NCBI RefSeq assembly: GCF_030295975.1
Contig: NZ_AP027364.1
Location: forward strand, 4,030,001 to 4,094,000
DNA from: Thalassotalea atypica
Lineage (GTDB): Bacteria > Pseudomonadota > Gammaproteobacteria > Enterobacterales > Alteromonadaceae
Direction: 5' to 3'
Length of the DNA stretch: 64,000 nucleotides
Shown here: positions 41,986-56,421 of the stretch, in pieces
Numbering within the stretch: the first letter of the stretch is position 1
How the letters are laid out: the number at the start of each line of letters is the position of its first letter
Notes under the pieces: generated by a model
Databases searched by the model: none
Told to the model about the DNA's origin: nothing
The model's input: only the letters and a program-made list of their open reading frames with translations
Translations under genes and position numbers: made by a program

Positions 41986-43161
41986 ATGAATTCTACTATC
42001 CACTATCAAGATCTGGCTGAAAAAATCAAGCTTTGGGGCGAGGAACTTGGATTTTCCCAAGTGGGTATCAGTGATATTGACCTATCGGTTCATGAACAAC
42101 ACTTGCAAAAGTGGTTAGATAATCAATACCACGGTGATATGGACTACATGGAAAAACATGGCATGATGCGAGCACGCCCTCACGAACTAGAACCAGGTTC
42201 GGTTCGGGCGATAAGTGTCCGCTTAGATTATTTACCCACTGATGCAAAGTTTGCCCGAACCCTAAAAAACAAATCCAAGGCCTATGTAAGTCGTTATGCA
42301 TTGGGCCGCGATTACCATAAGTTGATGCGCAAGCGACTGCAGCAACTAGGTAAAAAAATACACGAGTATTGCGAAGAATTTAACTTTCGTCCTTTTGTAG
42401 ATTCTGCACCAGTACTTGAGCGACCCCTTGCCGAAAAAGCAGGACTGGGCTGGGTCGGAAAACACAGTTTGCTGATCAACGAAGAGGCAGGCTCATGGTT
42501 TTTTATCGGTGAATTATTAGTCAACATTCCCTTAACCCTCGATAGTACAAGTGTTGAAAATAAGTGTGGTAGTTGCATATCGTGCATTAAGATTTGCCCG
42601 ACTCAGGCTATTGTTGAGCCGTATGTAGTGGATGCAAGAAGGTGCATTTCTTATTTAACCATCGAACTTCAAGGTGCAATACCTGAAGAATTTAGGTCAC
42701 TCATTGGCAACAGGATATATGGCTGTGATGATTGTCAATTAATTTGCCCTTGGAATAAATTTGCGAAACTCTCAATTGTAGATGACTTTCAACCCAGACA
42801 AGCACTCGACAATACCGACCTACTTGAGTTGTTCGATTGGACGGAAACGGAGTTTCTTGATAGAACCCAAGGCTCTCCCATTCGAAGAATTGGTTTTCAA
42901 AGCTGGCAACGTAACATTGCCGTTGCATTGGGTAACGCCCCATACCATGAGGCGATATTTAGCGCATTAACACAGAAAAAAGACGTTGAAGACGCCATCA
43001 TCAAAGAACACGTGCAATGGGCACTAAAACAACAGCAAACCAAACAGGCGCACCTACAACATCAGTTAGAAAAAGCGCAGCAGGATAAGAGCAATAAGAT
43101 TATTCGTCTGAATGAGCGCTTGATCCGATCGATTGAAAAGGGTCTACCAAGAGACGCCTAA
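41986..43161 (+). CDS. queG: Epoxyqueuosine reductase
   Basis: This 391-residue cobalamin- and iron-sulfur-dependent enzyme performs the last step of queuosine synthesis in tRNA. Two [4Fe-4S] cluster motifs are visible: CGSCISCIKICP (about 192-203) and CDDCQLICP (about 245-253). The catalytic-region DSAPVLERPLAEKAGLGW precedes them. The C-terminal HEAT-like tail is shorter than in some homologues and ends in a charged helix. It starts 15 bp from the divergent nnr start codon. Confidence 0.96.
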   Translation: MNSTIHYQDLAEKIKLWGEELGFSQVGISDIDLSVHEQHLQKWLDNQYHGDMDYMEKHGMMRARPHELEPGSVRAISVRLDYLPTDAKFARTLKNKSKAYVSRYALGRDYHKLMRKRLQQLGKKIHEYCEEFNFRPFVDSAPVLERPLAEKAGLGWVGKHSLLINEEAGSWFFIGELLVNIPLTLDSTSVENKCGSCISCIKICPTQAIVEPYVVDARRCISYLTIELQGAIPEEFRSLIGNRIYGCDDCQLICPWNKFAKLSIVDDFQPRQALDNTDLLELFDWTETEFLDRTQGSPIRRIGFQSWQRNIAVALGNAPYHEAIFSALTQKKDVEDAIIKEHVQWALKQQQTKQAHLQHQLEKAQQDKSNKIIRLNERLIRSIEKGLPRDA

Positions 43162-43412: not shown

Positions 43413-46400
43413 TTAGATCGCCTCAGCATAAGCCTTGATGGCAGACAATTCTAACTTGGCTTGTACAAGCAAACGTTCCATTTTATCGTACGCTTCGTTA
43501 ACAAGCGATTGCTCAAGCTGCTGAGCAACTTGTATTAATCCGGTGGCGGATAATATATTAGCGGTCAAATTAAGCTGTTTTAATAGCGAATCAAGAGGTT
43601 TGTACAACTGCTTGGTTAACGTGACTTCGATTAAACGAATGTCTTCCTCTAATGAGGTAATGTAGTCTTCTAGCATATACACTGCGAGTTCAGGCGAGCC
43701 TTGATTGTTAGCATATTTATCTAAATCAAAAGCCGGCAACAGGGTATCAAGCAGGCTAGAATCAAAAATATTAGGATCCAGTAGCGCCTGCCCATCAGTG
43801 CCTGATTTCATGCCCAAAGATCGCTCCATCGCGACATCATTTTTGTGAACACGAACTTGATGTTTTAACCAAGGTGACAATAACTGTACTATCGTTTTAA
43901 TCTGTGTAATTTTAGGCACGGTGCCAAAGTGCCAATGCTTCGCAATTTCTGCTTGTTTTTCATCGAGCTCGATGACTTCTTCGTTAGAGAAACTAAACAC
44001 TCCCCGTGCAATGGTTTTACCGGTTAGTAACTCAATTAACGGACTATGTGTAAACTCATTAAATAACACCAAATAGCGGCCAGATTGCCAATGTTTTTCC
44101 ATAGATTTACCATGACAAACCACCTTTACATGAAAACCTAACCATTGCAAAATGAGCCATAAACCTTGATGTTGCTGAGGAGACTTTACCGCCAGCAATA
44201 CCTCGACTTGACTCGGTTCATATTTAAACGGCGTTAATTTTTCACTGCAAATTAATAGATTACTATTTTCAGGTGATCGTAAAATACGCTCGCATTCACT
44301 CTGTAATTTTTCTTGGCAAAGCGGCGTTACCACCAGCGAATAAAGGCCGTTTCGCGATAAAGAGTCATTGTTGCTGTTTTGTAATACAATAAGCTTAGGT
44401 CTTTTTGCTTTAGGCAAACTATCGATATGAGCAATGACATCTTCAACGCTTTCTTTTTCGTGTTCGGCAAAGACGACAATATCGAGTTTGTGCCTGTTCA
44501 GATAACTCACGCCAAACTGTTCTGAAAATAGCTCAATTTCTGTCAAACCCGTAACTTTGGACATGACTTGCGCCAAGTATTTTTTAATAACGCTTTGTTT
44601 TTGTTTATCCCGACACAGTACTAATGCATGATAATTTTTCGCTGAATATTCTAACGATTTAGTCTTAGCTTTAAGTGAGGTTGCAATGGGTATTTCAAAT
44701 GAAATTTTATACCCAAGATCAGTTAACTCTGCGTTTAAGTTCTTACCATAAAATGCGCGGTACAATCTTAAGAAGTATGTCTCGGCCTCTTTATTATTAT
44801 CATTGAGCGCGCCGTCATTAATCAGGCATGCGTGTGAGGGTAATTCGATCAATGTTTTTAAGGTAGTTACATGGGCACTACACTTGATCAGTTGCTGTCC
44901 TGCATTTTGATCAATGGCGGTTACCGTTAGTAGCATTTGGCTTTTGTATTGCTCCTTCAATGCTGTCCGGCAAAAACTCGTTAACAGGCGCGTGAAAAGT
45001 CTGACATCAATTTTTGCTTGTTCGGCAAGATTTTCATCACACTGTAAAACAAGATTATTTTGCTGCAATTGAGCTTCATTAAAGGCATTAAAAGCAGCAC
45101 AATGAATTTCATCTCCCAAAACAACATCTTGCATGTTTCTGTTTTTTTCGCCGTAGTTCAATTGAGCGATAATCTGCTGCTGTCTGATCCATTCATACAT
45201 CCTAGCCAAAGGTCGATAAGATGATTGAATAGATATCCCTGAGACCAATGCAATGTTTTGATTTTGCAACATTGCCTGCACCAACATTTGCGACAGTTTC
45301 TCATAACTTTCATTCGAGTTTTTGTGTGCCTGCGCTTTGACAATTTCTTGTTGGCTGCGCAATGATTCAATTTCATTAAGCTGTGCAATTTTGAGTTCAT
45401 TATTCGCAATTGTGCCGAGCCACTGTTCTTGCTCAAATGCAATAGTCAACACAACAGCCGGCCCTGAAAGTAAAGTTACTTCTATAGATTCACTTTTTTT
45501 TGTTTCTTTCACTAAGCGAGCGCACTTGATAATACTTTTTGTCGTAGATGACGAAAAGTTACGTCGCCATGTCTGAGCAATATCTTGATTGCTCTGAGTT
45601 ACCATTTTTATGGTCTCAGTAGACTCTTTGTCAAGTTGGCCAGACGTCAAACGCCAGTCAGATACGTCCGTAGAATGCATGATATGTTCAAGGCGTTTAC
45701 GTAACGTTTGTTCAAGGTTTTTATAGTCTTCTTCATCATGTTCAGGGCGACTTACGCTACTGACTTGGCTACCAATTTCTTCGGCGTCTTGAGTTTGTAA
45801 AACCAGCTCATTCAACGCACTACCATCGAGCGTGTGTTGAACGACATTTTTAAGATGTACTTGGTGAAATTGTACCGTTCGATATAGTCGAAAAAACAAA
45901 AATAAAAGCACAGACACTGATAATATTAACCCGCCCCATATAACTGCAAGTATCTGCTCGTATGAAATATCAATGCCTAATTGGCTCAATAACTTTATTT
46001 TTGCCAGTGGTTGATGTTTTAGAAGCACTTTAGTGCCGGTAGGGCTGTGTGGAATTGATGCCAACGCTTGCTCAACCGCTAATTGATATGGGGCAAATAA
46101 CCGTAAATAACCACGCCATTTTGCCAGCAAGCGTTGCTCTTCAATAAGCAGATGATGTAATTCATTCATTTGCAATGAAATATTCTGAAATTGACCGAGG
46201 CTTTTTACATCATCATATAGCGTGAAGACTTGTAGCACATTTTCAGCGAAAAGTTCAAAGTCATCGATTGGCGTTTGTATATTTAGGTTATTAAGTTGAT
46301 GAGATATACGTGTCAGCATACGATGCATGAAATGCAGTTTTTCATCTGTTGTTTGCATTCCCTCTATTGGGCGTTTTTGCAACATCACACGCTCAAACGA

Positions 46401-46823
46401 GGCCAAAATAATATGTGCCTGATTAGCACTTTGTTGCCTGAACGTTTCATTTTTCTCACTGTTTTCACCAAGACGTTCTAATATTGCCTGATCAAATTCT
46501 AATAAATCAGCATGTTGTAATTGTTGTCTGTTGGATAAAAACGAGAAGTTTTCAATAATCACTTGATGATTTTCTTTTAACATATCACCTAATTTATAAC
46601 GTCCGACGTTATTAAGTGCGTAAAGAAATTGTGCATTCTTATTTGCTGTTTCTAGCGCTATTTTTGTTTGTGGAAGCTGCTCTGATAGCTGACTTTCCAA
46701 CTTTACTTGGTGTTGAAAAAACAACGAACCTATGCACAGCACAACACAGACCATCACAAAAATGATGAGTAATATTTGTGACAAAATTTGCCTAGAAAAA
46801 GGCGTTAACTTGCTATTATCCAT
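43413..46823 (-). CDS. Large membrane sensor-like protein with degenerate hybrid histidine kinase domains
   Basis: The 1136-residue protein has a transmembrane helix (about 14-36), a largely helical periplasmic domain (about 37-288), a second helix (about 290-313), and a long cytoplasmic part. That part reads like a hybrid kinase without its catalytic residues. The dimerisation helix (about 490-525) has valine where the phospho-histidine is expected, the ATPase-like region (about 605-715) shows no N or G boxes, and two receiver-like folds (about 731-850 and 871-985) lack the phospho-aspartate. A C-terminal Hpt-like four-helix region (about 1040-1130) contains no histidine. Function is unknown; a scaffolding or allosteric role is inference. 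Confidence 0.75.
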   Translation of the reverse strand: MDNSKLTPFSRQILSQILLIIFVMVCVVLCIGSLFFQHQVKLESQLSEQLPQTKIALETANKNAQFLYALNNVGRYKLGDMLKENHQVIIENFSFLSNRQQLQHADLLEFDQAILERLGENSEKNETFRQQSANQAHIILASFERVMLQKRPIEGMQTTDEKLHFMHRMLTRISHQLNNLNIQTPIDDFELFAENVLQVFTLYDDVKSLGQFQNISLQMNELHHLLIEEQRLLAKWRGYLRLFAPYQLAVEQALASIPHSPTGTKVLLKHQPLAKIKLLSQLGIDISYEQILAVIWGGLILSVSVLLFLFFRLYRTVQFHQVHLKNVVQHTLDGSALNELVLQTQDAEEIGSQVSSVSRPEHDEEDYKNLEQTLRKRLEHIMHSTDVSDWRLTSGQLDKESTETIKMVTQSNQDIAQTWRRNFSSSTTKSIIKCARLVKETKKSESIEVTLLSGPAVVLTIAFEQEQWLGTIANNELKIAQLNEIESLRSQQEIVKAQAHKNSNESYEKLSQMLVQAMLQNQNIALVSGISIQSSYRPLARMYEWIRQQQIIAQLNYGEKNRNMQDVVLGDEIHCAAFNAFNEAQLQQNNLVLQCDENLAEQAKIDVRLFTRLLTSFCRTALKEQYKSQMLLTVTAIDQNAGQQLIKCSAHVTTLKTLIELPSHACLINDGALNDNNKEAETYFLRLYRAFYGKNLNAELTDLGYKISFEIPIATSLKAKTKSLEYSAKNYHALVLCRDKQKQSVIKKYLAQVMSKVTGLTEIELFSEQFGVSYLNRHKLDIVVFAEHEKESVEDVIAHIDSLPKAKRPKLIVLQNSNNDSLSRNGLYSLVVTPLCQEKLQSECERILRSPENSNLLICSEKLTPFKYEPSQVEVLLAVKSPQQHQGLWLILQWLGFHVKVVCHGKSMEKHWQSGRYLVLFNEFTHSPLIELLTGKTIARGVFSFSNEEVIELDEKQAEIAKHWHFGTVPKITQIKTIVQLLSPWLKHQVRVHKNDVAMERSLGMKSGTDGQALLDPNIFDSSLLDTLLPAFDLDKYANNQGSPELAVYMLEDYITSLEEDIRLIEVTLTKQLYKPLDSLLKQLNLTANILSATGLIQVAQQLEQSLVNEAYDKMERLLVQAKLELSAIKAYAEAI

Positions 46824-46971: not shown

Positions 46972-47457
46972 TTAACGTTTCTTATTTACCCACGCCCAAT
47001 GCATTTCGCAGTCTATCGGCTCTAGCCCTGATTCATCCGTGATCTTAACCGAAACTATCACATCCCCTTTATCTTGTGATTGAATTAGCGTGACTTGTTC
47101 ATCAGTTAGTGTAGCCACTGCACTCAAGTCTCCTTGCATTCTCCGCGTGTAATTTACTGTCATAGATTTTAATAATGGAATATGACTGTCTGGTACGTTC
47201 ATGCCAAACACGATGCCGGTCGCAGACTCAGCTAATAAACTCGCCGCAATTGCGTGAACGCCACCAATGTGATTTTGTACTTTTTTTCTATTTTTGAGGG
47301 TTAAGTGCGTCTGACGTTGACTGACTGCAATAATTTTGACGCCTGACGTATTTGCATATTTCACCATAGTACAGAATAGTTTCGTCAGCAAAAAACTTTG
47401 CGTAAACACAGGAAAAGTATAAATTTTTGCTACTGCTTTACTAAACCGATTGGCCAT
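46972..47457 (-). CDS. DUF4442 hotdog-fold protein (possible thioesterase)
   Basis: This 161-residue protein matches the DUF4442 branch of the hotdog superfamily: a helical N-terminus, then NHIGGVHAIAASLLAESATG (about 82-101), where the His/Ala pattern is the PaaI-like active-site helix, and a C-terminal beta-strand region. PaaI-type relatives hydrolyse acyl-CoA thioesters, so thioesterase activity is plausible but unproven. It is transcribed in the same direction as the sensor-like gene, 148 bp upstream of it. Confidence 0.75.
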   Translation of the reverse strand: MANRFSKAVAKIYTFPVFTQSFLLTKLFCTMVKYANTSGVKIIAVSQRQTHLTLKNRKKVQNHIGGVHAIAASLLAESATGIVFGMNVPDSHIPLLKSMTVNYTRRMQGDLSAVATLTDEQVTLIQSQDKGDVIVSVKITDESGLEPIDCEMHWAWVNKKR

Positions 47458-54302: not shown

Positions 54303-55001
54303 ATGAGCACAAAGCGCATACTATTAATTGACGATGATATCGAGCTCGCCCAATTGCTGTCTGACTATTTGGGGCAAGAAGGCTATGCTGTTGAGTGCTG
54401 TCATGACGGCTTGACTGGATTAACTAAATCTTATGATGACGGCCTTGATCTAATATTACTCGACGTGATGATGCCAAATCTATCTGGCTTTGAAGTGTTA
54501 AAAGCACTTGGAGGTTCACATAAAACACCTATTTTGATGTTGACCGCCAAAGGTGACGACGCCGATAGAATATTAGGGCTTGAATTAGGCGCCGATGATT
54601 ATTTAGCAAAGCCGTTTCATCACCGGGAATTATTGGCTCGTATAAAAGCTATTTTTCGCCGTATAGAAATCGTCACTCAACAAAAAGCTCCACAGCAAAA
54701 ATTGGCCGTTAACGGTGTCGTATTAGACCACGGAAAACGCGAAGTTTTTTGCCATGAACAACCGGTTGAATTGACGGGTACCGAATATGAAATGCTGCAT
54801 TGTTTGATGGAGCAGCATGGCACTATCGTCAGTAAAGACGCTTTATCCGAACAAGTGTTAGGCCGTAAACTCAGTCCTTTTGACCGCAGCATAGACATGC
54901 ATGTAAGTAATATCAGACGAAAAATTTCCCAGTTTGATGAGCAAGACAAAATCAAGACGATACGTGGTTCAGGCTACTTGTTCCTCACTGGAGACAGCTA
55001 G
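54303..55001 (+). CDS. cpxR: Response regulator CpxR
   Basis: This 232-residue OmpR-class regulator has acidic-pocket residues DDD at 10-12, phospho-acceptor Asp54 in LLDVMMP, and the conserved lysine in LAKPFHHREL (about 103). A winged-helix DNA-binding domain follows (about 135-230, with LTGTEYEMLHCLMEQ and SNIRRKI). Pairing with cpxA, the divergent CpxP-like gene and the GTAAA repeats upstream identify it as CpxR. AAGGAAAA lies 5 bases before the ATG. Confidence 0.95.
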   Translation: MSTKRILLIDDDIELAQLLSDYLGQEGYAVECCHDGLTGLTKSYDDGLDLILLDVMMPNLSGFEVLKALGGSHKTPILMLTAKGDDADRILGLELGADDYLAKPFHHRELLARIKAIFRRIEIVTQQKAPQQKLAVNGVVLDHGKREVFCHEQPVELTGTEYEMLHCLMEQHGTIVSKDALSEQVLGRKLSPFDRSIDMHVSNIRRKISQFDEQDKIKTIRGSGYLFLTGDS

Positions 55002-56395
55002 TGTTCGAGAAAATATTGCCCGTTATTGCCTCAATAAAAGTTAAGTTGTTTTTATGGTTTTGGCTGATCACTATCAGTTCAATTGTAATCACCCGATTTA
55101 TATTAATACAGCTCAGTGAAGAAATGATCACCATGCCGATTCACGATCATGATCTGCGGCAATTGAATGCACTGGCGAATATGCTCCAGCGTATAGAGCC
55201 AAATTCAATAGAAGATTTAGTTGAAACACTGCAAAAACGAAAAAGGCATTCCTTTAAACGCGAATTGTGGATTAAGGATTTAAACTCTAACCAACTTTGG
55301 TCAACAAGAAATAAGCCCAATGTTGAAATTCAGCACTTTATCCAGACCAACGAATTGACAGAGCAAAACACCTGGCAGTTTCCACATTTCAAAATTGTTG
55401 GGCCACTTGAAACTTCCATCAGTGAAACCTCTGTACAACTCTACTTTTCGCAGCACAGTAAAACTCCGAAGCACTTGTCCTTGGCATTTCGCCATTTACC
55501 AATTTGGCAAAAAGTAGCCATTCCGCTGGTCATCAGCATGATATTTTGCTGGCTACTTGCACGATCACTTTCACGTCCCATGTCAAATATTGCGAAAGTC
55601 GCTCATACCTTAGGAGAAGGAGACTTTAGTGTTCGCCTACAAAAAGAAGAAGAACGTAATGATGAGTTAGGGCACCTAGCCAAAAGTTTCAATGTTATGG
55701 CAGATAAAATAGAGCAAAGTATGACCGCTCAACAGCGCTTATTAGGAGACGTATCTCACGAATTACGTTCGCCACTGACAAGGCTGCAAATGGCATTAGG
55801 GTTAATTCAAAATAACGAAAATAATTCTGATGCACGTGCAAGCTATCTGGCTCGCTGTGAACTGGAAGTCACTCGATTGGATAGCATGATTGGTGATGTA
55901 CTTGCCTTGTCTCGTCTAGAAAACACATTACAAAGTGCTCACACTGAGCCCTGCAATATAACTCAATTGATCTCTGTCTTGGTCGATGATGCTACCTTTG
56001 TTGCCAATGAGAAAGAGGTCACAATAGCTTACCATTGTCCGCTAGACATTATGCTTAATGTTGATAGCCAACTAATTGCGAGCGCTATTGGGAATGTGAT
56101 TAATAATGCCGTCAAATACACGCCAAATGGTTCTACCGTAGACATCGATATTTCCCAAGTAAATGGCTTAGTTAAAGTGATTATCAGTGACAACGGTATG
56201 GGCGTACCTGAAGCCGCTTTGGCGCAATTATTCGATCCTTTTTACCGCGTTGCAGAAGCAAGAGATCGTAGCTCTGGCGGCACTGGTTTAGGGCTAGCAA
56301 TAGCCAAGCAGGCGGTCATGCTTCACCAAGGAAAAATCAGTGCAAAAAATAAACATGACGGCGGCTTACAAATTACCGTAGAATTACCTCAATAA
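55001..56395 (+). CDS. cpxA: Sensor histidine kinase CpxA
   Basis: The 464-residue envelope-stress sensor has two membrane helices (about 14-37 and 171-189) enclosing a periplasmic domain, a HAMP domain (about 190-242), the H-box DVSHELRSPLTRL with His253, and an ATPase domain with NVINNAVKY (N box), DNGMGVP (G1) and GGTGLGLAIAKQ (G2). The GTG start overlaps the last base of the cpxR stop, so translation is coupled. All catalytic motifs are intact, unlike the large sensor-like protein at 43-47 kb. Confidence 0.95.
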   Translation: MFEKILPVIASIKVKLFLWFWLITISSIVITRFILIQLSEEMITMPIHDHDLRQLNALANMLQRIEPNSIEDLVETLQKRKRHSFKRELWIKDLNSNQLWSTRNKPNVEIQHFIQTNELTEQNTWQFPHFKIVGPLETSISETSVQLYFSQHSKTPKHLSLAFRHLPIWQKVAIPLVISMIFCWLLARSLSRPMSNIAKVAHTLGEGDFSVRLQKEEERNDELGHLAKSFNVMADKIEQSMTAQQRLLGDVSHELRSPLTRLQMALGLIQNNENNSDARASYLARCELEVTRLDSMIGDVLALSRLENTLQSAHTEPCNITQLISVLVDDATFVANEKEVTIAYHCPLDIMLNVDSQLIASAIGNVINNAVKYTPNGSTVDIDISQVNGLVKVIISDNGMGVPEAALAQLFDPFYRVAEARDRSSGGTGLGLAIAKQAVMLHQGKISAKNKHDGGLQITVELPQ

Positions 56396-56421
56396 AAATA
56401 AAAGCAATTAATACAACTAGG

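Follow-up and report, generated by a model that had tools for sequence, protein, structure and literature searches.

In the unorthodox hybrid sensor kinases of the BarA/GacS and TorS type, a transmembrane segment, a periplasmic sensor and a second transmembrane segment are followed by a dimerisation and histidine phosphotransfer (DHp) part, an ATPase domain, a receiver and a histidine phosphotransfer (Hpt) domain. The same domain order, with predicted folds that match the GacS kinase, the BarA Hpt domain and, less decisively, the TorS sensor, is found in the product of a 1136-codon open frame with an ATG start, carried on the minus strand (46823 to 43413) of a 64,000-nucleotide stretch of the Thalassotalea atypica genome, hereafter the window. 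Unlike BarA/GacS and TorS, this kinase-like protein has no catalytic residues at the aligned sites, and it has two receivers where the BarA-like protein of the same genome has one. With a histidine kinase fold, lost catalytic residues and a gene under selection, it falls in the class of pseudo-histidine kinases, its inactivity itself being predicted. The reading towards which we lean, with moderate confidence, is that of a phosphorylation-independent membrane sensor or scaffold, derived from an unorthodox hybrid kinase that lost catalysis and having the Hpt-like end as its main output.

Other two-component proteins with missing catalytic residues resemble it in part, as far as the available excerpts of the papers cited here go. 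RcsD also combines a pseudo-histidine-kinase part with a C-terminal Hpt domain (PMC3762810), but the latter hands phosphate to RcsB, whereas the kinase-like protein lacks the Hpt histidine and has two pseudo-receivers. RetS, a membrane protein resembling histidine kinases, exerts its effect on another kinase through contact (PMC12148439); here the likeness is by predicted fold alone and, unlike RetS, three orthologues of the kinase-like protein have no DHp part. DivL (PMC4211667, PMC9430884) and a ChrS variant (PMC9491836) are likewise kinase-like and act without ordinary kinase output; however, a chain of dead receivers and Hpt domain is not mentioned for them in those excerpts, and the ChrS variant comes from laboratory evolution. 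The bacterial pseudo-receivers termed PsR (PMC12632262) share the receiver fold without a phosphorylatable aspartate, but differ from the present case, in which two of them stand in one protein beside dead kinase and Hpt parts and neither is reported by Pfam. In the same source, the phospho-site is given as missing from 0.9% of the HisKA domains, 0.9% of the Hpt domains and 2.0% of the receivers sampled by means of domain models, and the mechanisms of bacterial pseudo-receivers are called a mystery. A Caulobacter hybrid kinase without the histidine but with the aspartate also appears in the excerpts seen. No description of the kinase-like family was found in the open-licence literature.

The gene and the parts of its product, all on the minus strand, are the following (window coordinates; TM, transmembrane helix; pLDDT, predicted local distance difference test).

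43413..46823, minus strand: whole gene, predicted catalytically dead, tripartite hybrid-kinase-like membrane protein of 1136 residues (frame and predicted structure)
46716..46790, minus strand: TM1, residues about 12-36 (by eye; within predicted helix 9-75)
45963..46715, minus strand: periplasmic helical bundle, residues 37-287 (fold comparison and conservation; modelled helices reach residue 256)
45888..45962, minus strand: TM2, residues 288-312 (by eye; within predicted helix 288-332)
45402..45668, minus strand: PAS-like domain, residues 386-474 (order of strands and helices in the model; without Pfam match)
45144..45401, minus strand: DHp-like helix pair without conserved histidine, residues 475-560 (model, with two long helices at 475-557; fold comparison; alignment)
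44670..45143, minus strand: ATPase-like domain with N box, G boxes and ATP lid lost, residues 561-718 (hhalign; modelled fold 565-715)
44235..44648, minus strand: pseudo-receiver 1, residues 726-863, Ala786 at the aspartate position (hhalign; modelled at 729-863)
43854..44222, minus strand: pseudo-receiver 2, residues 868-990, Asn922 at the aspartate position (hhalign; own model; modelled at 874-985)
43746..43853, minus strand: disordered variable linker, residues 991-1026 (pLDDT below 50 at 991-1025; 11% mean pairwise identity)
43416..43745, minus strand: Hpt-like helical domain, residues 1027-1136, Lys1082 at the histidine position (profile and fold; modelled helices 1034-1135)

An AlphaFold2 model of the window protein, built on a 34-row alignment, has a mean pLDDT of 80.3 and a predicted template modelling score (pTM) of 0.51. 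When its domains were compared with known structures, using VIA-align Z scores as well as Foldseek, the kinase, receiver and Hpt folds were all recovered. Residues 436-716 adopt a DHp-ATPase fold matching the GacS kinase (Z 17.3 over 261 residues, root-mean-square deviation (rmsd) 6.6) and also the ETR1 catalytic domain (Z 12.4, 148 residues, rmsd 2.9), while the helical bundle of residues about 1028-1136 matches HptB (Z 15.9, 109 residues, rmsd 2.0) and the BarA Hpt domain (Z 14.6, 110 residues, rmsd 2.5). Receiver 1 (729-851) has the (beta-alpha)5 fold, with Z of about 12 against receivers (1nxp: Z 12.5, 112 residues, rmsd 2.5). Receiver 2, folded alone, reached a pLDDT of 87.5 and a best Z of 10.4 (3i42, 104 residues, rmsd 2.8); among the matches listed, its counterparts are receivers or receiver-bearing chains, the (beta-alpha)5 fold being recovered in a model without helix 3, and Foldseek alone was weaker for this domain (best E 2.2e-4). 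The periplasmic bundle (50-267) resembles the TorS sensor (Z 12.5, 207 residues, rmsd 6.9), McpS (Z 12.5, 208 residues, rmsd 6.8) and PilJ (Z 12.4, 213 residues, rmsd 4.7), at Z values that helical bundles can reach by arrangement alone. Structure prediction, fold comparison and profile-profile alignment thus uphold the layout that an earlier sequence-only reading of the locus had proposed by eye (TM, periplasmic helices, TM, dimerisation helix, ATPase-like, two receivers, Hpt-like), to which the PAS-like fold at about 386-474, between TM2 and the DHp helices, is an addition.

Standard domain models hardly detect the protein. Pfam at E<=10 returned a sub-threshold Hpt match (17.1 bits for a cut-off of 24.6) and two irrelevant matches; the cut-off for HisKA or HATPase_c was not passed and neither receiver was reported, and NCBIfam gave two weak, irrelevant matches. 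Across 23 family members, Pfam at E<=1 matched Hpt in five and Response_reg in one, and HisKA and HATPase_c were not among the 25 of 49 Pfam matches listed for them. Ten canonical hybrid kinases are found in the same genome, and in all five that were scanned HisKA, HATPase_c and Response_reg score above the Pfam cut-offs. Because Pfam and NCBIfam hardly detect the family, counts of degenerate two-component proteins based on such models would miss it.

Where Pfam itself gave only the sub-threshold Hpt match, hhalign comparison of family segment profiles with 13 canonical kinase rows placed four segments with canonical kinases and in canonical order: ATPase-like (probability 92.5, E 4.9e-7), receiver 1 (96.4, E 1e-9), receiver 2 (91.2, E 9.8e-7) and Hpt-like (85.4, E 5.8e-6). 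As controls, three column-shuffled profiles and six unrelated families all stayed below probability 2, and the DHp, linker and periplasmic segments had no match to the 13 rows (DHp alone, probability 0.2). This profile match is partly circular, since nine of the 13 rows were fetched via the family's own searches, two of these nine (L054 and L072) being pieces of one protein. Against the ten kinases of its own genome taken singly, the best score was obtained with L199 (probability 75.6, E 2.4e-5, residues 470-1136); the search for a nearest canonical paralogue in the genome gave no clear winner, comparisons of a single domain with a single kinase being mostly not significant. The canonical kinase L054, used as query, recovers the kinase-like gene at E 1.9e-5. 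Within its own genome the gene is the sole match, and a profile search of solved structures returned no match at E<=10.

After merging duplicates, 50 distinct copies of the gene were retained, comprising 46 of more than 850 residues, three short forms and one cut by a contig end, L054 and a broken copy, L117, having been set aside. Catalytic sites were counted in one alignment of the 46 long members, on which the column counts depend. The N-box asparagine (column 620) is present in 0/46 rows, and, when aligned to canonical kinases, the family shows neither G boxes nor an ATP lid, in keeping with the loss of N and G boxes read from the sequence. The aspartate of receiver 1 is found in 0/37 rows, the nine further rows being gapped there since they lack the domain (the C. 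psychrerythraea group plus L050 and L051), and that of receiver 2 in 0/46, the residue being Thr in 23, Ser in 10, Asn in 9 and another in 4; by alignment, the FAEHE and FNEF motifs do occupy the aspartate positions of receivers 1 and 2, as had been read by eye. At column 1082, no row out of 46 carries the Hpt histidine, the window protein having Lys1082 in keeping with the histidine-less Hpt-like segment reported earlier, and the three short forms carry Gln, Asp and Asn. As the DHp part has no significant sequence match, the exact phospho-histidine column cannot be fixed and all columns from 488 to 526 were therefore checked: histidines are scattered, with a maximum of 7/46 in any one column, and the window protein has none at 501-526, in line with the sequence-only reading of the KLSQMLVQAM helix. 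With these sites empty over 46 members, their loss is common to the family and not a register error in one sequence.

A few near misses were nevertheless recorded in the 46 rows: an aspartate within one residue of the receiver 1 site in five, an asparagine within one residue of the N-box site in three and a histidine within two residues of the Hpt site in four. For receiver 1, the register is uncertain by about one residue between alignments, the residue after the site being Glu in 16/27 and Asp in 6/27 in a 34-row alignment (A3) versus 5/37 each in the 46-row one. Together with receiver 2, where Thr, Ser or Asn is followed by Glu (37/46 rows) or Asp (6/46), the near misses could speak for a non-standard catalysis, in which phosphate would be carried by shifted or other residues such as a relocated histidine or the Ser, Thr, Glu or Asp of the pseudo-receivers. 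Such a catalysis is very unlikely, given that no near miss is common to the family as His or Asp, that histidine peaks at 7/46 in the DHp columns and at 4/46 in any one of columns 1070-1095, and that neither G boxes nor lid are seen in the alignment.

Purifying selection, looser than that on most of its neighbours, acts on the gene in the tested pairs of relatives. The ratio of non-synonymous to synonymous substitution rates (dN/dS) ranges from 0.12 to 0.29 across the 30 pairs of highest similarity out of 86, which overlap, and is mostly 0.01-0.2 for neighbouring genes, a single neighbour value of 0.38 (DUF4442) coming from a comparison of different genes. The claim that an intact frame of 3.4 kb reflects selection and not decay is borne out in these close pairs. 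A decaying relic without function might be suspected from the fast divergence (members are 17-31% identical to the window protein in alignment A1), the one broken copy and the absence from some genomes; this is extremely improbable in view of the dN/dS values, of three residues invariant in 46 rows (Trp912, Arg940 and Trp985) and of the copies themselves, all 50 being open frames, though picked as such, and the matches listed in a search of 118 genomes having no internal stops. As a separate observation, the pair L034 and L035 has a synonymous divergence (dS) of 1.43 for the kinase-like gene versus about 0.2 for queG, orn and nnr; the gene was probably replaced there by recombination with a divergent allele.

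Conserved columns, defined by at least 90% identity over the 46 rows, are unevenly spread. The Hpt-like domain has 11 in 110, nine of them within residues 1030-1070 and none in the phospho-helix (1073-1091). In canonical Hpt domains, conservation centres on the phospho-histidine. As judged from the alignment, constraint on the Hpt-like domain of this family is carried by a helix A/B motif, NQGSxELAxxMLxEY. Receiver 2 has 11 conserved columns in 123, including the three invariant residues; the ATPase-like domain has six in 158 (Asn579, Leu630, Asp638, Gln643, Gln644 and Leu687) and the periplasmic part four in 242 (Asn125, Leu128, Lys235 and Trp236). Receiver 1 has two in 138, its columns being hardly able to reach 90% because nine of the 46 rows are gapped in this domain; when only the ungapped rows are counted, Pro809, Gly826 and Asn855 also pass. 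No column reaches the threshold in the DHp part, the PAS-like domain, the TMs or residues 313-385. Pooled by domain over eight overlapping pairs, dN/dS is lowest in the DHp part (0.18) and highest in the linker 991-1026 (0.36), with 0.19 in the Hpt-like and 0.22 in the ATPase-like domain.

The low value of the DHp part, which makes it as constrained as the Hpt-like end, and the retention of Gln520, Gln522 and Gln548 in 38/46 rows would suit a RetS-like modulator, whose dead DHp-ATPase part would pair with an active hybrid kinase and inhibit or prime it by contact. A RetS-GacS DHp contact is described in the available part of PMC12148439; in fold, residues 436-716 come closest to GacS, with RetS also ranking high (Z 14.2; 7n0e, 14.4), and the genome encodes a BarA-like candidate partner, L202, with sCache_4, HAMP, HisKA, HATPase_c, Response_reg and Hpt domains. 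We regard such a modulator as unlikely, since no DHp column reaches 90% in 46 rows, though Gln520, Gln522 and Leu539 do so in a 23-row alignment, and since the DHp part is missing altogether from three orthologues.

These three short orthologues, L053 (592 residues), L055 (556) and L056 (525), match the family profile at their N-terminal part (profile positions 1-432, 18-408 and 12-442, respectively) and at their C-terminal part (1064-1187, 1032-1185 and 1067-1187), with nothing between. In residues of the window protein, this corresponds at the widest to 1-405, and then from 993-1016 to the end (993-1136 at the widest), so that the short forms consist of the sensor and the histidine-less Hpt-like end, and each retains the larger part of the helix A/B motif. 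L055 and L056 are located within the queG interval, and L053 lies beside a DUF4442 gene, its queG being on another contig. On the best queG tree, the origin of the short forms needs three changes.

According to the reading we favour, that of a sensor or scaffold, an unorthodox hybrid kinase of the BarA/GacS/TorS type would have lost catalysis in an ancestor of these Colwelliaceae and then been retained. The periplasmic bundle would bind a ligand or a periplasmic protein, the resulting change would travel via TM2 and the long helices, and the output would be a protein-protein contact, mainly through the helix A/B face of the C-terminal Hpt-like domain, helped by pseudo-receiver 2 where present. 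This reading rests on the predicted folds, the empty sites, the purifying selection in close pairs, the placing of the conserved columns and the three reduced orthologues. The scaffold working without phosphorylation that the sequence-only reading had suggested is supported as an interpretation, its mechanism being a proposal. Of the two outcomes that would have refuted that reading, predicted folds foreign to kinases, receivers and Hpt domains or orthologues with His or Asp at the aligned sites, neither was obtained. Several points weigh against it. At a pTM of 0.51, the arrangement of the domains in the model is not reliable, and none of the 30 pairs used for dN/dS includes the copy of the window itself. 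The output need not be the Hpt-like end alone, given the six conserved columns of the ATPase-like domain and the dN/dS of the DHp part. In the short forms, loss of the kinase-receiver block is deduced as the likelier direction because the long form has the canonical kinase order, and a single origin of these forms is not rejected, the approximately unbiased test giving p-AU 0.064 on the queG tree and 0.069 on the protein itself. Not every family member has the sensor, only 27 residues replacing the periplasmic bundle in one of 884 residues (L052:5256-7907, plus strand; assembly given as 80% complete). Finally, the gene is absent from two genomes inside the clade of carriers, G062 and G073 (assemblies 91% and 89% complete), and the copy of an uncultured Colwellia metagenome-assembled genome is broken by several stops and frame changes (L117:4351-7271).

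Matches to the gene at E<=1e-3 were found in 27 of the 118 related genomes searched, all in the family of the window's organism, a count that takes in the genome of the window itself as well as G050, where the canonical kinase L054 is what matched. When 394 genomes of the order were searched by profile, with no more than two candidates scored in each, 22 had matches, the long ones being confined to the same family, and the 35 named loci of a contig scan are labelled Thalassotalea, Colwellia, Pseudocolwellia, Cognaticolwellia, Thalassomonas, Colwelliaceae and, once, Alteromonadaceae. In the window, the locus order is mutL-amiB-tsaE-nnr-queG, the kinase-like gene, DUF4442, orn and rsgA-psd; the plus strand in register with the 1136-residue frame is full of stops, and a promoter and terminator scan gave values at chance level. 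The two flanking genes are the following.

46972..47457, minus strand: DUF4442 gene, directly upstream and on the same strand as the kinase-like gene (in the fetched stretch of 36/50 copies)
41986..43161, plus strand: queG, convergent neighbour (in the fetched stretch of 48/50 copies, missing only in L053 and L090)

In a queG tree of 60 rows, the carriers fall in one 52-row clade (support 100/98), including two rows without the kinase-like gene. To look for a canonical ancestor at the same locus, the region downstream of queG was taken in 20 cases, of which 19 were from genomes lacking the gene and the other from G045. Such an ancestor was rejected: apart from L126, a separate canonical kinase, the ten neighbour proteins scanned are of unrelated kinds (GGDEF/EAL, RecQ-like helicase, Na/H exchanger, acyl-CoA dehydrogenase, ABC proteins, methyltransferase and others). 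Elsewhere in the window, 54315-56404 on the plus strand matches a receiver (G000:C1:4084315-4084656) and a histidine kinase (4085700-4086404), the latter match crossing two stops, and these are probably two-component genes.

In 21 of the 50 distinct copies, the kinase-like gene is adjoined by a gene for a receiver-TPR protein (REC-TPR), which separates it from queG wherever the latter occurs. All 21 REC-TPR proteins have Ser or Ala at the aspartate position of the receiver, whose lysine and much of whose acidic pair are retained. The kinase-like protein could then be the upper half of a phosphate-free pathway acting on this aspartate-less neighbour. We hold this to be distinctly unlikely: a REC-TPR orthologue was not found in the window's genome (best match 21%), so that it cannot be the partner there, nor in other carriers such as G009, G019, G033, G043, G053 and G066; Ser or Ala stands at the aspartate position in every row of at least 35% identity, with or without the kinase-like gene (e.g. 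L038:8342-9991, plus strand; L033:2515-4185, minus strand), and the adjacency needs four changes on the queG tree. A tie between the aspartate loss in REC-TPR and the kinase-like gene was accordingly rejected, aspartate-less orthologues occurring in genomes without the gene and the aspartate only in the remote L176 and L177. In addition, a second REC-TPR paralogue with Gly at the aspartate position was seen in three carriers (L170, at G000:C1:37021-38547, L171 and L172). A bolder proposal, conceivable but doubtful, would join these elements into a 'ghost phosphorelay', in which kinase, both receivers and Hpt domain, all dead, would be kept together as an allosteric interaction machine that, in a large part of the family, acts on the adjacent aspartate-less REC-TPR by conformational contact alone, the Hpt-like end being the minimal output.

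The two-component pseudo-kinases met in the literature excerpts keep at least one live module or were covered there only in part. In the present family, the aligned members have a dead catalytic site in each module, and yet one locus has retained the gene across much of the Colwelliaceae. With three members that lack the whole kinase-receiver block, the family makes it possible to test what can be achieved without phosphate by receiver and Hpt folds.

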